This document shows, piece by piece, positions 25,404 to 54,907 of a stretch of DNA of 64,000 bases (positions within the stretch are counted from its first letter, which is position 1; the number at the start of each line of letters is the position of its first letter). Below the pieces are notes generated by a model. It was not told the DNA's origin, searched no databases, and saw only the letters and a list, made by a program, of their open reading frames with translations. The position numbers were made by a program, and so were the translations under genes. The stretch is from Ardenticatena maritima (lineage in GTDB: Bacteria; Chloroflexota; Anaerolineae; Ardenticatenales; Ardenticatenaceae): positions 558,001 through 622,000 of the forward strand of contig NZ_LGKN01000005.1 in the NCBI RefSeq assembly GCF_001306175.1. The letters are read 5' to 3'.

Positions 25404-25445
25404 AGGCTTCTCCATCCATCACAATTTTGAAGAAGGTAGTGCGTG

Positions 25446-26027
25446 ATGTCTGCAAAAAGTGAAACCGACCTTGTTCAGGCGCTTCGTGCCGGCGACCAAT
25501 CGGCATGCGATGAATTGGTGCGCCGTTATTACGATACCGTCTATCGTGTTGCCCTTCATCTCACCGGGCAACCGGATGCCGCCGAAGATGTCCTTCAAGA
25601 GACGTTTATCAGCGCGTGCCAGGCGGCGCAATCGTTTCGGAACGACGCCCGTTTGAGTACGTGGCTCTATCGTATCGCGCGCAATCGTGGTTTGCAGTGG
25701 CAGCGCAGCCAGCGCGAAACGGTGCCGTTGGAAACCGACGAAGATGACGAGCAGGCGTTCAATAGTGTCATCGCTGATATGCGCCATATTCCCGACCAGG
25801 CTCTGCTTTCGCAAGAACTGTTTGATGTCGTGGACCGCGCGATTCTTGCTTTGCCCGAAACGCTCCGCCAAGCGTTTCTGTTGCGTGAATTTGAAGGCCT
25901 TTCAACCAAAGAAGCCGCCGAAGCGTTGGGTATTTCCCAAAGTGCGCTGAAAGTGCGGCTTCACCGTGCCCGCCAACAGATTCAAGAGACGGTGCGCCGT
26001 TATTTGGAAGAAGCCGACCCTTCTTGA
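25446..26027 (+). CDS. ECF-type RNA polymerase sigma factor
   Basis: 193 residues. Region 2 (DELVRRYYDTVYRVALHL, EDVLQETFISACQAAQSF, STWLYRIARNRGLQW) and region 4 (LPETLRQAFLLREFEGLSTK, EAAEALGISQSALKVRLHRA) are complete. No region 3, as expected for ECF sigmas. The start could be the ATG at 25446 or the adjacent GTG. No anti-sigma factor gene is adjacent. Its 3' end overlaps the convergent rsmA gene by 28 bp. Confidence 0.92.
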   Translation: MSAKSETDLVQALRAGDQSACDELVRRYYDTVYRVALHLTGQPDAAEDVLQETFISACQAAQSFRNDARLSTWLYRIARNRGLQWQRSQRETVPLETDEDDEQAFNSVIADMRHIPDQALLSQELFDVVDRAILALPETLRQAFLLREFEGLSTKEAAEALGISQSALKVRLHRARQQIQETVRRYLEEADPS

Positions 26028-45942: not shown

Positions 45943-46662
45943 TTAGGCAAGATTGTGGCGTTGACAATGCATGGCCAGAAAACGAGGATCTGGCGCATGT
46001 TGGCGTGGGGGATGAAAGGTTGTTGTTGCGTCCAAAATCATCTGAGCAAGCGAACCTGCTTCCGGCGGGAGAGGGCGCCGTACAATGTCGAAGTTTGCAT
46101 TGAGTCCAAAATACCCATGCTCAAAGAGCGGATCATGAAAACGGCACATTGCCATGGTGTTGTGTAAGGAACCGCGCCATTGAGGTGCGTCTGCCCAGCG
46201 CACAATATGGGCGGCGACTAGCAGGGTGGTGTCGCGCACGTCGCAAAAGGCGCATTGCCATCCGTAGTTGGCAAGCGTGAGTGTACGCAAGCGGTCTTGT
46301 CCACGACGTACACGTGCGCGTTGAACGGTATCGCTGACGGTTGCTTCATTCGGGATCGTAAGGCGATCTGCTTCAATGGCGTGGTCGAGGGCTTCATCGG
46401 GCAAATCTTCATCTTGCACTGCGATCGGATCGCCGAGAAAGAGATATCGCCCCTCGCCAAGAAATTCAAGCAAACCATCGTCGCGCAATTCTTGCAGAAC
46501 ACGGCTCAACGTTTGTTCGGGGGTGCGCCCATGGCTTCCGGTTGCCGCCACAATGCGAGGCAACATCTCGGCGATGAATGCCTGGCGTGTCATCAGCACC
46601 GAGCCGTGTTGTGCGACGTAGTGTCGAAGAGCGCTCAGCACGCTTTCGCGCCACGTTGGCAT
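45943..46662 (-). CDS. HNH endonuclease with N-terminal winged-helix-like region
   Basis: 239 residues; AGAGGAAAACG precedes the ATG. Residues ~1-80 look like a winged helix (GSVLMTRQAFIAEMLPRIV, TPEQTLSRVLQELRDDGLLE). The C-terminal HNH_2 module holds CAFCDVRDTTLLVAAHIVRW, the Asn of SLHNTMAMCRFHDPLFEHGY and nearby His ligands. It resembles restriction-type HNH nucleases that recognise specific or modified DNA. No methyltransferase gene is adjacent, so it is solitary. Confidence 0.85.
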   Translation of the reverse strand: MPTWRESVLSALRHYVAQHGSVLMTRQAFIAEMLPRIVAATGSHGRTPEQTLSRVLQELRDDGLLEFLGEGRYLFLGDPIAVQDEDLPDEALDHAIEADRLTIPNEATVSDTVQRARVRRGQDRLRTLTLANYGWQCAFCDVRDTTLLVAAHIVRWADAPQWRGSLHNTMAMCRFHDPLFEHGYFGLNANFDIVRRPLPPEAGSLAQMILDATTTFHPPRQHAPDPRFLAMHCQRHNLA

Positions 46663-46671
46663 CGTTTTCCT

Positions 46672-47151
46672 CTATTTTCCCAGTTGCTTCACCAGCACCA
46701 GCGCATGCCGTTGAATACCAAACACATGCTCTTCGCGGCGCCACACCTTGAAACCGCGGCGCAAATAAAAGCGGCGCGTCGCCTCAAAATGTGGTGCGGG
46801 AACTTCGGGCGCAATCGTACGCACTTCCAGCGTTTGGTAGCCGCGGGCGTGGGCGATGCGCTCAACGGCATCAAGGAGTTGTGAGCCAATACCGTGTTGC
46901 TGATGGGATGGTGCAACACCAATCCAGGCGAGCGCCATAATGTCCGGCATGATGGGGTGATAGATCGCAAATCCCACAACGCGCTCATCTATCTCAGCCA
47001 CCAGGCCTTCATAGCGGGCTAAGTCTGCGGCAATCATGAGTTGGTCGGGGGCGGTGAACCAATTGGCCAGCGCCCGTGCGACCTCGAAGACCGCCTCGTA
47101 ATCATCGGAGTGCATGGCGCGAATGCGGACGGTGAGCGTTTGTTCGTTCAT
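46672..47151 (-). CDS. GNAT-family N-acetyltransferase
   Basis: 159 residues. RAMHSDDYEAVFEVARALAN, AWIGVAPSHQQHGIGSQLLD (acetyl-CoA loop QxxGIG) and ATRRFYLRRGFKVWRREEHV define a single GNAT domain. The ATG overlaps the upstream receiver gene stop by 4 bp. Substrate unknown. Confidence 0.88.
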   Translation of the reverse strand: MNEQTLTVRIRAMHSDDYEAVFEVARALANWFTAPDQLMIAADLARYEGLVAEIDERVVGFAIYHPIMPDIMALAWIGVAPSHQQHGIGSQLLDAVERIAHARGYQTLEVRTIAPEVPAPHFEATRRFYLRRGFKVWRREEHVFGIQRHALVLVKQLGK

Positions 47152-47558
47152 GGTGCTTCTCCTTCTGTTTCTGTGCCTGTTGGTGAGAGTGCAGGCGGCA
47201 ACAGGCGTTCCACTGCTTCCACCACTTCACCCACCGTAAACGGGCGTACCAAAAACGCCGCCACCTCGGGGCGGATCGGTTCTAGCGTGGCGCGGTCGAA
47301 CACGGTTGTCAGCAGAATGATCGGGGCGTGGGGCGCCATACGGTGGAGCGCGCGCACCGTTTCAGGCGTCACGTCGGGATCATCGCGGCTGTCCACGATG
47401 ATGAGCGGCGGTTCGACACGCCCTTGGACAAGCGCTTTGACGCCCCACGTCAGCCCCGGCAATGCCAGAACTTCGTAGCCGCGTTCCTTGAGTTCGGCTA
47501 ACACGAGCGCGCGCGTTTGCCAATCGCGCGAGAGAAGGAGCAGGCGGCGCTCAGCCAT
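47148..47558 (-). CDS. Receiver-like (REC) single-domain protein
   Basis: 136 residues from ATG 47558, 1 bp after the zinc-ribbon gene stop. The CheY-like fold shows RRLLLLSRDWQTRALVLAEL, then LIIVDSRDDPDV with a candidate phospho-Asp, APIILLTTVFDR and FLVRPFTVGEVVEAVERLLP. The acidic pair normally at the N-terminus is Ser-Arg-Asp here, and the usual lysine of the K-P dipeptide is Arg (VRPF), so phosphorylation is doubtful. Probably an atypical receiver. Confidence 0.75.
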   Translation of the reverse strand: MAERRLLLLSRDWQTRALVLAELKERGYEVLALPGLTWGVKALVQGRVEPPLIIVDSRDDPDVTPETVRALHRMAPHAPIILLTTVFDRATLEPIRPEVAAFLVRPFTVGEVVEAVERLLPPALSPTGTETEGEAP

Positions 47559-47559
47559 T

Positions 47560-48033
47560 TCAGACGCCCTTGCTGACTTTTTGCCCTTCATAGTTGGGCG
47601 GGCGTTCGGGGGTTTGCCAGCCGAATTTCAAAAAGCCCACGTGTTTGCGGCAACGAAAATCCCACACGCCGCCGGGGGCTTCCCAGCCGCCCCCCGCTCG
47701 TTTTTTCGCCATGGCGCAATCGTAGCACACGTAATCGTTGCATTTGTCGCAGACGCCACCCCAGAAAATATCCGCCTGGTCAGTGGGTTTGCCGCAAGAA
47801 GCACAAGTGCGCGGTTGGGCAATCTCTTTCTCAAAGCAAGCCGCACAGCGGTCTTCCCAGTGCGGTGGCACATGGTGCCACGACTCGCTCCACATGGCAT
47901 AGGACATGGCTCGCCGAATGGCACTGCATCGCGAGCAATATTGCTCACCGCATTCGCGGCAGGTGTGCATCATCTGCGGTGGACGTTCTTTCTGACAAAT
48001 AGGGCAAACAACGAGTTGTGCGGGTTGTGTCAT
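47560..48033 (-). CDS. Cysteine-rich zinc-ribbon protein, unknown
   Basis: 157 residues; ATG 48033 follows GGAGGGG. Seven CxxC-type pairs (CPIC, CREC, CSRC, CAAC, CASC, CDKC, CYDC) suggest three or four treble-clef or RING/FYVE-like zinc modules. No enzyme motif. It heads the tightly spaced minus-strand run of receiver, GNAT and HNH genes. Confidence 0.75.
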   Translation of the reverse strand: MTQPAQLVVCPICQKERPPQMMHTCRECGEQYCSRCSAIRRAMSYAMWSESWHHVPPHWEDRCAACFEKEIAQPRTCASCGKPTDQADIFWGGVCDKCNDYVCYDCAMAKKRAGGGWEAPGGVWDFRCRKHVGFLKFGWQTPERPPNYEGQKVSKGV

Positions 48034-49211: not shown

Positions 49212-50102
49212 ATGAAACAATCATGGTATAGACCGGACCCGCAATTACAGATACGAATGTTCCTCACCATGTTTTTGCTGGCGGTGGTCTATTTGCTCTT
49301 TGTTGCTGTTATGCTTATGTCGGGGGCGCGCGCCACGACGACATTCTTGTTTGCATTGGTCATGTTGGGAGTCCAGTACTTTTTCAGCGATAAACTGGTG
49401 CTGATGTCGGCTGGTGCGCGTGTCGTTGAACGCGATGAAGCCCCGGAATTGTATGAGATGGTGGCGCGCTTGGCGCAACAAGCCGACCTCCCCATGCCCA
49501 AAGTGGCGATTGTTCCCTCACGTGTACCAAACGCCTTCGCCACCGGGCGCGACCAGCGCCACGCAGTTGTTGCCGTGACGCGAGGGTTGCTCGATCTCCT
49601 CACACCGAGCGAACTGGAAGCTGTCTTAGCGCACGAATTGACGCACATTCGCAATCGTGATGTGGCCGTGATGACGATGGCGAGTTTTTTTGCCACGGTT
49701 GCGCAGCTGGTGGCGCGCTGGTTGATGTGGGCAGGATTTGGCGGTAGTCGCCGCCGTCGCAACGGGGGCAGTATCGCGTTCGTCTGGTTGGTCTCGTTGT
49801 TGGTCTGGCTTGTGAGTTTCTTCTTGTTGCGGGCCTTGTCGCGCTATCGCGAGTATGCCGCCGACCGTGGTGCGGCACTTCTCACCGGTTCGCCCAGCGC
49901 GCTGGCAAGTGCCTTGCTCAAAATCAGCGGGGCGATGAATCGCGTCCCACAACGAGATTTGCGGGAAGTTGAAGGCTTGTCGGCGTTTTTCATTGTGCCG
50001 GCTGGTGTGCAAAATTTGTTCATCGAACTTATCAGCACCCACCCACCATTGGAAAAACGCCTGGCGTACCTGGAACGCTTGCAGCAGGAAATGGCACAAT
50101 AG
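49212..50102 (+). CDS. htpX: M48 membrane metalloprotease HtpX
   Basis: 296 residues. Two N-terminal helices, then LVLMSAGARVV, the zinc motif HELTH (141-145), a further pair of helices (~150-210) and the third ligand Glu in REYAADRGAALLTGSP. HtpX degrades damaged membrane proteins. Normal length. The next gene is pspAB, 8 bp away, the arrangement seen in actinobacterial Psp-associated loci. Confidence 0.93.
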   Translation: MKQSWYRPDPQLQIRMFLTMFLLAVVYLLFVAVMLMSGARATTTFLFALVMLGVQYFFSDKLVLMSAGARVVERDEAPELYEMVARLAQQADLPMPKVAIVPSRVPNAFATGRDQRHAVVAVTRGLLDLLTPSELEAVLAHELTHIRNRDVAVMTMASFFATVAQLVARWLMWAGFGGSRRRRNGGSIAFVWLVSLLVWLVSFFLLRALSRYREYAADRGAALLTGSPSALASALLKISGAMNRVPQRDLREVEGLSAFFIVPAGVQNLFIELISTHPPLEKRLAYLERLQQEMAQ

Positions 50103-50110
50103 GGGGGCGT

Positions 50111-50743
50111 ATGGAGCGTGTGCGGGCATGGGTGAATGCCATACTGGGGCGCAACGTCGCCCCCGCGCCTAGCCAATCGGACCGCCTCTTTGCGCTGAAT
50201 ACGGCGCAAATCACAATGGAAGTCTCGTTGGGTTTGAAGCCCACAGGTGTGGCGGCGATTGTCTTCAAGGCATTGGAATCGGCGCAGTTTGCACGCTTGC
50301 AAGCGGAGATTCGCGATTTGTTGAAGATTGCGGCGCGTGAGACGCAGACCGTGAGCCATGCCATGAAGGATACGTATGGCTATTGGTGGATTGTGTTCTA
50401 CGATGACGATTTCGAGGAGTTGGTGGCGGCTATGCACCTGGTAACCAGTTCGCTGGAAGACCAGGGCTTTGGACCGTCATTGCTCGCGGCGGTCTTCGAG
50501 TATGTGGATGAAGAAGAGCACAAAGTGTACATGATTTACAATTTCAAGCGGGGGCGCTTTTATCCGTTTGTCCCCACAGGTGGCAAAACACGCGATACCG
50601 CGCGCGAGTTTCGTATCAAAGCAGTGCTGGCGAACGAATTACCCATCGAGCCAGACACCGCCCGCTGGTATCCACTGTGGGATTTACCGCTCCAACGCCC
50701 ACAGCAGGGGGGCGGCAAGTCTGCTTTTGGCAATGTGATGTGA
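50111..50743 (+). CDS. PspA-associated protein PspAB
   Basis: 210 residues. The family pattern is visible: WVNAILGRNVAPAP near the N-terminus, RLFALNTAQITMEVSLGLKP, IVFKALESAQFARLQAEIRD, KDTYGYWWIVFYDDDFEEL and YNFKRGRFYPFVPTGGKTRD. PspAB occurs with HtpX and PspA in actinobacteria and some Chloroflexota and is thought to help the membrane-stress response; its molecular role is unknown. No pspA gene is in the window. Confidence 0.82.
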   Translation: MERVRAWVNAILGRNVAPAPSQSDRLFALNTAQITMEVSLGLKPTGVAAIVFKALESAQFARLQAEIRDLLKIAARETQTVSHAMKDTYGYWWIVFYDDDFEELVAAMHLVTSSLEDQGFGPSLLAAVFEYVDEEEHKVYMIYNFKRGRFYPFVPTGGKTRDTAREFRIKAVLANELPIEPDTARWYPLWDLPLQRPQQGGGKSAFGNVM

Positions 50744-50761
50744 TGACTACTCCCTAACAAA

Positions 50762-50799
50762 CAACACCCCGAACAGACCAGCGTCCATTCGGGGTGTTG
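50762..50799. terminator. Bidirectional terminator
   Basis: CAACACCCCGAA pairs perfectly with TTCGGGGTGTTG across a 14-nt loop, between pspAB and the convergent release-factor-like gene. Confidence 0.8.
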
Positions 50800-50818
50800 C
50801 TGTGCCAGCGCATGCACC

Positions 50819-52039
50819 TTAGTAGCGCAGAATAGCGCCAATGCCGCCTGCTTCTTGAAGCATCTTCTCGCGTAATTCGCCGCGAATCACATCGATATCA
50901 TCGGCTTGCTCCACCGCCCGCTCGATAGCGAGTTCCACGACGTCATCAGTACGCAGCATCGCGCCACCGCAGAGTTCACACGTCGCCAGGTCGGCTTTGC
51001 TGGTGAGCCAACCGCACTGCGTGCATTCCGCCCCTGGCGCGATAAACCCTTCAGCGACCAGGAGCACCATCACGCGCTTCTCGTTCAGCGCATGCAGCGT
51101 CTCATCCAGCCCCATCACCCCTTTGCCGGTGTGATAGGCGTCCTGTAACTTTTGGAAGCGTTCCGCTTCGACCTGGCGCTCGATTTGCTGCTCAACTTCA
51201 AGCACGCGTTCAAGGATATCGCGCAGCCCTGCGAAGTGTTCCATTGGAATGTGCGCCGCGACCTTCTGGCGCAGGTCGTTGGGCAAGAATTCCTCAAACG
51301 CCTTCGTGTTTTCAGATTGCCCGGCGAGAATCAGGCGCGTGATGGGCGCTTGCTCGAAGAAGCGCCGCGCATCTTCCGCAACCTTTTTGAAGTGGCGTTC
51401 GATGTGGTCTTCAATGTGGCGTTGATAGCGTGCTTGCGACCAACCGCCCTGATCGTGCCAGCCGGGCACGTCGTCATCGCGTTCTTCCGCCCATTCGTCA
51501 ATATCGCCCATGAAGACGCGGAACAGACGCCCATGGCGACGGTCCACAAAGATGACACCCGTCGGCTCAAACTCTTCGGCAATGCGTACCAACGTGCGCA
51601 CTTGCGGGCGGTCGCCGACATAGACCATGTCGCGCACAGGGACGGGCAGCCGATAGATGTTCCAGATGTCCATTGCCGGTGCAGCAAACAGCACCAGCCC
51701 CTTGCCGTGATGCCCCGTCAGGTCAAATTCTTCTTCAAAGAACGTTTGAATGCGGTCAAACGTCTCTTTGGCGGCTTTCAGCGTTTCTTTGGGTGTGTCT
51801 TCGGCTTCCAATGCGTCATACGCCTCACGCAACAAGCGCTTTACCCGCACGGGCAATTGCGCTTCTTGCAGGCGTTGGGGTGTCATGTCCAGATAGAGCG
51901 AGACAAAGACGCCTTTATCGGCACGCAACTGTGCCAGCGATTCAATGGCTTCGGGCGTGAGCAAATCGTATGCCCGGAGGCTCATCTCCGCGTCCAGACG
52001 TTCCAGTGCTTCTTCTCGGATGGTGTTGCGTTCGGTCAT
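50819..52039 (-). CDS. baeRF/VLRF1-class eRF1-like protein
   Basis: 406 residues; AAAGGAGGGGG precedes the ATG. The length and layout match archaeal/eukaryal release factor 1 relatives: N-terminal helical region, a central domain with GVIFVDRRHGRLFRVFMG leading to QGGWSQARYQRHIEDHIERH (GGWSQ at 198-202, the equivalent of the GGQ loop region), an L7Ae-like domain with VMVLLVAEGFIAPGAECTQC, and a CxxC-x(n)-CxxC zinc ribbon. Related Vms1/VLRF1 proteins release peptidyl-tRNA from stalled ribosomes. It follows a sigma-like gene by 39 bp on the same strand. Confidence 0.85.
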   Translation of the reverse strand: MTERNTIREEALERLDAEMSLRAYDLLTPEAIESLAQLRADKGVFVSLYLDMTPQRLQEAQLPVRVKRLLREAYDALEAEDTPKETLKAAKETFDRIQTFFEEEFDLTGHHGKGLVLFAAPAMDIWNIYRLPVPVRDMVYVGDRPQVRTLVRIAEEFEPTGVIFVDRRHGRLFRVFMGDIDEWAEERDDDVPGWHDQGGWSQARYQRHIEDHIERHFKKVAEDARRFFEQAPITRLILAGQSENTKAFEEFLPNDLRQKVAAHIPMEHFAGLRDILERVLEVEQQIERQVEAERFQKLQDAYHTGKGVMGLDETLHALNEKRVMVLLVAEGFIAPGAECTQCGWLTSKADLATCELCGGAMLRTDDVVELAIERAVEQADDIDVIRGELREKMLQEAGGIGAILRY

Positions 52040-52078
52040 AGAGCCCCCTCCTTTACCCAGGATTATTTTGAAAATATC

Positions 52079-52720
52079 TCAACCAACTTGCTTCAATTGC
52101 TGGCGTGCTTCTTGTACGGCTTTCTGTACGGCCTGGATTGACGTGTTCAACAACCGCGCTGTTTCTTCCAATGGGAGCCCGTGTATGGCGTGCAAGATAA
52201 ACGCTTGCCGTTGCAGCGGCGGCAACTGGTTCAACAGCGCTTCGGCTTCCTCCACTTCAATCTCTTCCAGGGCTTCCTCTTCCGTCGATTCGTGTTCCTC
52301 ATCCGGAATGATGTCCTCGAACGTGGTCACGTCGTCCGGCTCCCAATACGCCCACAATTGCTGGTCGGCTTCCGGGTCAACGAGCACGTCTTCAATGGAA
52401 ATGTCGCCGCTCGTCATCTGATATTGACGTGCCAGTGTGGCTAACGCACGACGCACGGCGCTATAGAGCAAGGTTCGCCCTGAAACGGTTGCGCGCTGTT
52501 TGCCGCGCCGAGTGCGCCACATATCCCACGCAGCAATGACGGCTTCGTTGATGACCTCGGCGGGCGTCACGGCGCCTGGTGCAAGCGCGCCCAGCGCTTC
52601 CAGGTAGCGCAATTCACGCGCGGCGTATTCGTACAACTCATCGAAGTGCCGCTCAATCAGGCGGCGGAACCGTTCTTTTTCTTGCTTGGAAATGCGTGTT
52701 CGCGTCATGCGCCGTTGCAT
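52079..52720 (-). CDS. Sigma-70-like regulator
   Basis: 213 residues; ATG 52720 follows AAAGGAGGC. A divergent region 2 (FRRLIERHFDELYEYAAREL, EVINEAVIAAWDMWRTRRG) is followed by a strongly acidic linker (FEDIIPDEEHESTEEEALEE) and a clear region 4 (LPPLQRQAFILHAIHGLPLE, ETARLLNTSIQAVQKAVQEA). It is probably an ECF-like sigma factor or a sigma-related regulator. Neighbours are the eRF1-like gene downstream and dnaK upstream, across a terminator. Confidence 0.8.
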   Translation of the reverse strand: MQRRMTRTRISKQEKERFRRLIERHFDELYEYAARELRYLEALGALAPGAVTPAEVINEAVIAAWDMWRTRRGKQRATVSGRTLLYSAVRRALATLARQYQMTSGDISIEDVLVDPEADQQLWAYWEPDDVTTFEDIIPDEEHESTEEEALEEIEVEEAEALLNQLPPLQRQAFILHAIHGLPLEETARLLNTSIQAVQKAVQEARQQLKQVG

Positions 52721-52756
52721 GGTTTGCCTCCTTTTCTGCGGCGCTTTTCGACAAAA

Positions 52757-52786
52757 GGGGGCGGTTCCCATTCACGAACCGCCCCC
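52757..52786 (-). terminator. Terminator of dnaK
   Basis: GGGGGCGGTTC pairs perfectly with GAACCGCCCCC across eight bases; on the minus strand TTTTG follows. Confidence 0.88.
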
Positions 52787-52814
52787 GTCTTGTGCCTTGC
52801 GTCTCCTTTGCCGA

Positions 52815-54710
52815 TTAGGCTTCGCGGTATTCGCCTTCGACCACGTCGTCGTCAGCGCCACCCGTGGTCGAAGCACCGCTGTCGGGAGCGGCACCCGCCT
52901 GAGCCTGCTGGTACGCGGCTTGCCCCATTTGCATGGCGGCTTGTTCAAGTTCGCTCAACGCAGTGCGCAAGCGGGCTTCATCGTCGGCTTCGAGCGCGTC
53001 GCGCACGGCTTGCACCTTGTTTTCGATGTCGGCTTTCACGTCCGCCGGCAACTGTTCACCGAGTTCGCGCAACTGCTTGTCAATCTGGTATGCCAGCGCG
53101 TCCGCACGGTTGCGCAGTTCGATGTATTCCTTGCGCCGGCGGTCTTCTTCGGCGTGCAGTTCGGCTTCGCGCACCAACCGTTCGACTTCTTCCTTGCTCA
53201 GGTTGGTGCTCGCCGTGATGGTGATGCTCTGCTCTTTGCCGGTCGCTTTATCCTTCGCCGAGACGTGCAAGATACCGTTGGCGTCAATATCGAAGCAGAC
53301 TTCGATTTGCGGCACACCACGCGGTGCGGGCGGGATCCCTTCCAGGCGGAAGCGCCCAAGCGTCATGTTGTCCTTCGCCAACGGGCGCTCACCTTGCAGG
53401 ACGTGGATGTCCACCGCCGTCTGGTTATCTTCCGCCGTGCTGAAAATTTCGCACTTGCGCGTTGGGATGGTCGTGTTGCGCGGGATGAGCACCGTCATCA
53501 CGCCACCCAACGTTTCAACACCCAGCGACAGCGGCGTCACGTCCAGCAAGAGCACGTCCTTCACTTCGCCCGCCAACACACCGGCTTGGATAGCCGCACC
53601 AATCGCCACCACTTCGTCCGGGTTGACGCCCTTGTGCGGTTCCTTGCCGGTCAACTGGCGCACCAGGTTCTGCACCATCGGCATACGGGTCGAGCCACCC
53701 ACAAGCACCACTTCGTCAATGTCCTTCGCCGTCAAACCGGCGTCTTTCAACGCCTGGTTGAACGGACCTTTCAGGCGCTCGACCAGGTCTTCGGTCATCT
53801 GCTCGAACTTGGCGCGCGTCAGGCGCAGTTGCAAGTGCTTCGGACCGCTAGCGTCCGCCGTGATGAACGGCAGGTTGATTTCGGTTTCTTGCAACGTCGA
53901 GAGTTCAATCTTCGCCTTCTCGGCGGCTTCTTTCAAGCGCTGCAACGCCTGGCGGTCGTTGCGCAGGTCAATCCCTTGGTCTTTCTTGAACTCTTCAATC
54001 ATCCAGTCCACGATGCGTTGGTCCCAGTCGTCACCACCGAGGAACGTATCACCAGCGGTGGCACGCACTTCGACCACGCCATCGCCCACGTCCAGAATCG
54101 AGACGTCGAACGTCCCACCACCAAGGTCGAAGACCAGGATGGTTTCGTCCTTCTTCTTGTCCAGACCATACGCAAGCGCCGCCGCCGTCGGCTCGTTGAT
54201 GATGCGCAGCACTTCCAGCCCGGCAATCTTGCCCGCGTCCTTCGTCGCCTGGCGTTGGCTGTCGTTGAAGTACGCCGGCACCGTAATGACCGCTTGTGTG
54301 ACCGGTTCGCCCAGGTAGGCTTCGGCGTCGGCTTTCAGCTTTTGCAGAATCATCGCGCTGATTTCTTGCGGCGTGTACACCTTGCCGGTCGCCGGAATCT
54401 TCACGCGGGCGTCACCCTGCGGGCCGGGGACGATTTCATACGGCGCGTGTTCCTTGAATTTTTGCACAACGGGGTCATCATAGCGGCGGCCCATCAAGCG
54501 CTTCACCGAGAAAACGGTGTTTTGCGAGTTGACCACCGCCTGGCGTTTCGCCAATTGCCCCACCAAGCGTTGTCCGTCCTTGGTAAACGCCACCACAGAT
54601 GGCGTTGTGCGACCACCTTCGGCGTTGGGAATGACCGTCGGCTCACCGCCTTCCATCACGGCCATGACCGAGTTGGTCGTCCCAAGGTCAATGCCCAGAA
54701 TCTTGCCCAT
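52815..54710 (-). CDS. dnaK: Chaperone protein DnaK (Hsp70)
   Basis: 631 residues. [20 protein letters not shown], the ATPase motifs [18 protein letters not shown] and [19 protein letters not shown], and the beta-sandwich substrate domain ([20 protein letters not shown]) are complete, as is the helical lid. It ends with an acidic tail ([14 protein letters not shown]). ATG 54710 has AGAGGTGA 8 nt upstream; ATGs at 54716/54719 are less well placed. grpE and dnaJ are not adjacent, and I see no CIRCE element upstream. Confidence 0.98.
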
Positions 54711-54907
54711 AGTCATCACCTCTCTTTCAAAAATTTGGCTTCCGCGAGTTGTCTGCGGCTACCTTAGCCGTCAGGTGTTGGAAGCCTACTAGTGAAATCA
54801 TAGAATTGTATTAGAAAGCAAGACGAATTTTGCCCAAAATGGCGTGTCTGCACGGGATTGGCGCAAAGTCGTCTTGCCGTCAGGGCTTTCCGGCTGGCGC
54901 GCCGCTC

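Follow-up and report, generated by a model that had tools for sequence, protein, structure and literature searches.

A gene for an ECF-type sigma factor and the gene that follows it in Ardenticatena maritima may together form a stress unit, in which the second gene encodes a Balon-like ribosomal A-site protein that resembles an anti-sigma factor in close relatives. We put the probability of this reading at roughly 0.4. The most likely arrangement would be a sigma/anti-sigma switch, or a descendant of one, with the ribosome A-site factor as its sensor. The window is the whole 64,000-nucleotide stretch of DNA that was analyzed, and it comes from a genome of 3.56 Mb. The features of the locus are collected in Table 1.

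Table 1. Features at the sigma-baeRF locus, in window coordinates
Feature	Position	Strand	Basis or remark
htpX	49212-50102	+	Runs toward baeRF; family Peptidase_M48/HtpX
pspAB	50111-50743	+	Runs toward baeRF; family PspAB
baeRF family 10, three-domain aeRF1/Balon-like factor, 406 aa	50819..52039	-	PF18854, predicted model, Balon match
Zinc ribbon CxxC...CxxC in C-terminal Pelota-like domain	50969..51025	-	C339, C342, C354, C357
Middle (RNase H-fold, release-factor) domain	51188..51607	-	PF18854, residues 145-284
GGWSQ loop, residues 198-202	51434..51448	-	W in place of the GGQ glutamine
N-terminal helix, residues 2-22	51974..52036	-	Sits where sigma-coupled relatives have anti-sigma helix 4
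ECF-type sigma-70-like factor, 213 aa from likely start	52079..52720	-	TIGR02937 and Sigma70_r4_2 matches
Terminator-like hairpin and T-run between dnaK and sigma	52757..52786	-	11 pairs, 9 GC
dnaK, directly upstream	52815..54719	-	Order dnaK-sigma-baeRF also in L038, L039, L040

Family and predicted fold of the baeRF protein

The original prediction described an eRF1-like protein with a GGWSQ loop and a zinc ribbon, encoded 39 bp (52040-52078) after a sigma-like gene, and this was borne out by the coordinates and by the matches of both products (PF18854, E = 2.6e-42; sigma70-ECF, E = 1.2e-17). Its assignment of the protein to the VLRF1 class did not hold. In Pfam, the full baeRF family 10 domain scored 144.9 bits with a cut-off of 27.1. 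acVLRF1 (PF18859) scored 49.8 bits, above its own cut-off and far under PF18854, and eRF1_2 (38.3 bits) and other baeRF families ranked after these two. The NCBIfam acVLRF1 model NF041024 reached 25.3 bits against a cut-off of 125, and VLRF1 membership was rejected on domain order and scores. By its profile matches, the window protein is a member of baeRF family 10 and not a VLRF1.

The fold pointed to Balon. An AlphaFold2 model built from 53 sequences had a pLDDT of 91.2 and three domains, and a Foldseek search followed by VIA-align ranked Balon hibernation factors first. The top six VIA-align rows were all Balon chains (Z 23.0-33.7), led by Msmeg1130 (Z 33.7, rmsd 3.2, 371 residues), and P. 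urativorans Balon gave a Z of about 27. For aRF1, Z was 18.6 and rmsd 10; the alignments to aRF1 and to Balon both begin at residue 23. In the predicted model, the nearest whole-protein shape is Balon, although the lower Z of aRF1 is due in part to domain arrangement. The three NCBIfam hibernation-factor models, NF052287/8/9, scored 80.6, 93.0 and 55.7 bits against cut-offs of 330, 480 and 320, and by this measure the protein falls outside those three families. The four cysteines of the zinc ribbon were invariant in an 11-row alignment of relatives. Balon-type factors are characterized by a beta-hairpin in the C domain that contacts EF-Tu; in its C domain, the window protein has this four-Cys ribbon. 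At this C-domain site, a two-strand insert replaces the zinc ribbon in many families, according to the available part of PMC6514570.

In an ungapped alignment, GGWSQ pairs with GGQSQ of aRF1 (3agk) and GGQSA of eRF1 (8ip8), so that W falls on the catalytic Gln and the Q comes two residues later. The available text of PMC6514570 describes the later loop Gln as potentially catalytic in baeRF family 10 and VLRF1; the motif it reports for aVLRF-1/acVLRF-1 is GGxSQ. Of 41 proteins, 39 entered a tally of the loop, since L043 and L059 are truncated. QGGWSQ was present in seven of the nine sigma-paired proteins and absent from L066 and L076, which lack the loop Gln altogether. Eight of 30 unpaired baeRF10 proteins had GGWSQ or GGWAQ and 22 did not; a ninth pattern match, in L053, falls outside the loop and is not among the eight. 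That GGWSQA does not vary in alignments A4 and A5 follows from the search pattern and has no evidential value. By the tally, GGWSQ is common but not tied to sigma pairing.

These counts bear on the possibility that the protein is a peptidyl-tRNA hydrolase or ribosome-rescue factor that works through the GGWSQ glutamine, a role suggested for baeRF10 and VLRF1. This role seems improbable. PMC6514570, in the part available, considers that baeRF family 10 may be active, given its conserved Gln, and the loop is kept in most sigma-paired members; against this stand the W at the GGQ glutamine, the loss of Gln in two sigma-paired members, the 22 unpaired proteins with neither loop form and a fold closer to Balon. 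Two of the nine sigma-coupled relatives have lost the Q, and the coupling is therefore not conserved for the sake of peptide release. The genome also encodes tmRNA (183 bits), an RqcH-type NFACT protein (318 bits) and, on another contig, one HPF-type protein, so the need for an extra rescue hydrolase is not obvious. The proposal of a release-type factor with a dedicated sigma factor thus stands as far as an eRF1-class factor is sigma-linked in relatives; its release part is not supported in the form proposed, with the W and the lost Q against it.

Another explanation, that of a bacterial stop-codon release factor, is very improbable. The full aeRF1 domain order and a match of 99.3 bits to the aRF1 model TIGR03676 would fit it, but that score is far under the cut-off of 234.7, NIKS was absent from all 39 sequences tested and the loop has GGW instead of GGQ. 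This candidate was rejected.

The sigma factor, its neighbors and its pairing with baeRF genes

The sigma-like open reading frame spans 52079-52771, and the most likely true start is at 52720, an ATG behind AAAAGGAGG that was chosen for its GGAGG. A separate GGAGG serves the baeRF ATG. The sigma product matched TIGR02937 at 64.3 bits (cut-off 42.9) and Sigma70_r4_2 at 55.5 bits (E = 4.5e-15). Region 2 (PF04542) was unlisted for it at E<=1; the paired sigmas of L045 and L066 scored 21.4 and 18.5, with a cut-off of 24. In the window, the two genes are in one reading frame, and what separates them (52039-52081) is one TGA and an open linker of 13 codons. A programmed read-through from sigma into baeRF was rejected: the frame differs in L038, so the arrangement is not conserved and read-through is probably not functional. 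A second ECF-type sigma factor at 25443-26027 of the window belongs to a different clade.

The original prediction had also grouped the pair with dnaK and, on the opposite strand, htpX-pspAB as stress genes, and this grouping proved weaker than apparent. The gene dnaK does lie directly upstream, and among the 41 stretches it does so only in the four family members. However, a GC-rich hairpin with a T-run separates dnaK from sigma, with equivalents in L038, L039 and L040 and thus in all four family loci, and simple co-transcription with dnaK was rejected on this ground. No sigma-70 consensus promoter was found in 50700-52900 of the window. The genes htpX and pspAB are present on the plus strand, but of the 41 stretches searched, the window alone has them. 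Regulation through them was dismissed, as the relatives showed neither gene in the vicinity of baeRF.

PADLOC gave no match for the sigma or the baeRF gene, and a role for the two genes as a defence system was set aside on this result. Elsewhere in the window, PADLOC reported an HNH endonuclease-like protein at 45943-46662 (PDLC04132, 3.6e-16). Positions 47560-48033 encode a Cys-rich protein of 157 aa that has no confident Pfam family, and the 3' end of its gene is overlapped by a gene at 47148-47591 for a response-regulator-like protein with weak matches only.

PF18854 was found in 5/6 genomes of the Ardenticatenaceae and 88/301 Chloroflexota genomes. The 41 stretches consist of the window and 40 fetched loci, a non-random choice from the better-scoring PF18854 matches that leaves aside some 60 weaker ones. 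A sigma gene lay directly upstream on the same strand in nine of these 41 Chloroflexota loci (the window, L038, L039, L040, L045, L047, L049, L066 and L076), and the sigma and baeRF genes overlap by 4 bp in six (L039, L040, L045, L047, L049 and L066). Within the family, four of six genomes had the pair; the exceptions are G002, 83% complete and without a match, and G003, whose paired-type copy is cut by a contig end. The named scan, which could return only genes with Hx[QT]GGWSQA, found a sigma neighbor in 6/80 loci. Those six are copies of L038, L039, L040, L045, L047 and L049 and come from genomes already counted, and broad conservation of the pair was rejected. On the baeRF tree, pairing needs at least six changes, compared to a mean of 8.5 after shuffling (7 of 500 shuffles were as low). 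Pairing is clustered on the tree, but it has been repeatedly gained or lost. Conservation of the linkage across Chloroflexota, the check proposed originally, is therefore true only patchily, with four of six family genomes on one side and nine of 41 loci on the other, and the linkage is rare outside the Ardenticatenaceae.

Some unpaired baeRF10 genes sit directly behind stress genes: dnaJ-MerR (L044), grpE (L046), a DksA/TraR zinc finger (L051), Hsp20 (L053), Usp (L056) and trypsin-like/PDZ proteases (L048, L072).

In the sigma tree, the nine baeRF-paired sigmas fall into one 19-sequence clade (support 100/99). The other ten precede a nicotinate phosphoribosyltransferase (NAPRTase) gene in six cases (L164, L166, L167, L168, L169 and L170, all from one Chloroflexota family, f55), Hsp20 in one (L163), Usp in one (L173) and no recognized gene in two. 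Since the clade also pairs with these genes, it can work without baeRF. The sigmas before nicotinate phosphoribosyltransferase possibly mark an NAD-salvage stress regulon.

Anti-sigma-like domains in three sigma-paired relatives

N-terminal extensions were seen in an alignment of the sigma-paired baeRF proteins. Two of these, L079 and L080 (from loci L039 and L040 in the sister genus g3), carry a class-I anti-sigma-like domain. Both begin with Cys...Hx3Cx2C, and their GTG start, preceded by GGAGG, overlaps the sigma stop by 4 bp. Hx3Cx2C marks zinc-binding class-I anti-sigma domains, in which a three-helix bundle sits on sigma region 4 and a fourth helix on region 2, as described in the available text of PMC7406223. 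The L079 model (pLDDT 83.6; residues 73-79 under 50) has four helices at 3-12, 21-33, 35-56 and 61-78, which match this layout. For L079 and L080, the NCBIfam models gave E = 8.6e-8 and 5e-6 for the anti-sigma family NF052375 and 8.2e-5 and 1.5e-3 for RsrA, under the curated cut-offs, and zf-HC2 in Pfam gave 20.4 and 21.7 bits, just under its cut-off of 22.2. Compared to the curated cut-offs of NF052375, NF052368, TIGR03988 and zf-HC2, all scores of the two proteins were below. Between L079 and L080, the anti-sigma domain had a pN of 0.115 and a pS of 0.516, and the body 0.077 and 0.416. By these values, the N-terminal domain is evolving as protein, under purifying selection.

A third protein, L161, is the baeRF10 of L076 and comes from a different family of the phylum; its version of the domain is zinc-less (NF052375, 1.2e-4, below the cut-off). 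A profile of the domain found it in full in 3/115 baeRF10 proteins, all sigma-paired (3/9 paired, 0/106 others); these three built the profile, and the informative part is the absence in the other 112. A search of 400 Chloroflexota genomes for further fusions returned one full-length match, in G152, which is the known case of L161, and within the family only G004 and G005, both already known. A PDB search with the anti-sigma part returned only 3hug_B at E = 0.17. L066 has a different N-terminal extension, and L045, L047 and L049 have none, though they are sigma-paired. On the baeRF tree, the L076 pair stands apart from the family of the window, which leaves a single origin of the fusion unproven. 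The presence of the domain in relatives, which the original prediction had missed, suggests a regulatory link and not an expression link only.

The window protein and L038 lack the first three helices and the Hx3Cx2C motif. In the class-I anti-sigma test on the window protein, the three-helix bundle was absent and one N-terminal helix was present. No gap separates this helix (pLDDT about 67-77) from the next domain, and it lines up in register with the relatives' helix 4, with which it shares ...ERL...YDL. Over profile positions 57-129, A6 matched the window protein at 1.9e-15, but most of this match comes from the next domain. The profile match to helix 4 by itself had an i-Evalue of 0.46, which is not significant, as the helix alone is too short. 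Compared to Ardenticatena sp., the closest relative in the named scan (85% identity), the helix had a pN of 0.079 and a pS of 0.51 over 22 codons, and the body 0.092 and 0.60. The helix is, on these figures, conserved within the genus under purifying selection. L191, a baeRF10-like protein from G402, has a window-like N-terminal stub and no sigma gene within 1.5 kb upstream, which disfavors a strict rule linking stub and sigma.

Another possible explanation is a stress operon and nothing more: the sigma factor would drive a Balon-like hibernation factor and other genes without protein contact, and the anti-sigma domain of the relatives would be a lineage-specific addition. This is a serious contender and, for the window itself, nearly as likely as the switch. 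Published work places Balon genes in stress operons that also contain alternative sigma70 factors, DnaK and DnaJ (PMC10901736, in the part available). Sigmas of this clade are found before other stress or metabolic genes as well, unpaired baeRF10 genes adjoin grpE, dnaJ-MerR, Hsp20, Usp and trypsin-like/PDZ protease genes, and the window lacks the three-helix bundle. What this explanation does not account for is the confinement of anti-sigma domains to sigma-paired members and the conservation of the window helix.

A proposed ribosome-controlled switch and related systems

In the proposed switch, ribosomes would titrate an aeRF1/Balon-like anti-sigma factor. With busy ribosomes, free baeRF would hold the sigma factor. 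Under stress, with A sites empty or stalled, baeRF would move onto the ribosomes and silence or protect them, and the freed sigma factor would transcribe protective genes. The window would be a reduced version: in its genus, the three-helix part is absent and the counterpart of helix 4, which makes the region-2 contact in known pairs, is kept. The genus keeps only this counterpart, and therefore the sigma contact would be weakened, replaced or lost there. We hold this detailed version only tentatively. Ribosome binding, sigma binding and the direction of the switch are all what we infer from the fold, the fused domain and the gene order, and sigma binding and its control by ribosomes are the weakest steps.

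The known routes from ribosome state to transcription in bacteria depend mostly on small molecules such as (p)ppGpp. If the proposal is true, a protein that both occupies the A site and binds a sigma factor would connect ribosome occupancy directly to the choice of promoter, and the large, mostly uncharacterized baeRF group would gain a second role beside hibernation. The literature searched by title contained no report of an anti-sigma domain fused to an eRF1/Balon-like protein, and its fusion to a baeRF/Balon-like protein is new as far as we have seen. Already known, from the available parts of the sources, are baeRF10 as a family with a possible activity (PMC6514570) and the role of Balon homologues in hibernation, with genes that lie in stress operons beside those for sigma70 and DnaK/DnaJ (PMC10901736).

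Among known systems, Balon (Msmeg1130, Rv2629 and the P. urativorans protein) has, like the window protein, a three-domain aeRF1-like fold over its whole length and neither NIKS nor GGQ. Both have a stress neighborhood with sigma and chaperone genes, judging by the available text of PMC10901736. The window protein differs in its zinc ribbon, its GGWSQ loop and its scores under the NCBIfam cut-offs, and its relatives carry an anti-sigma domain. The conserved loop Gln described for baeRF family 10 is present in the window protein, whereas ECF sigma pairing and anti-sigma fusion are not mentioned for the family in the available part of PMC6514570. VLRF1/Vms1 proteins share the GGxSQ motif with the window protein, and PF18859 matches it above cut-off; according to the same part of PMC6514570, acVLRF-1 lacks the N-terminal stop-codon domain, whereas the window protein has three domains. 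Compared to the class-I zinc anti-sigma factors of the RsrA and ChrR type, the window protein is reduced to a counterpart of helix 4. L079 and L080 share with these factors the Cys, the Hx3Cx2C motif, the four helices and the overlap with the sigma gene, and differ from them in that the sensor part is an eRF1/Balon-like body.
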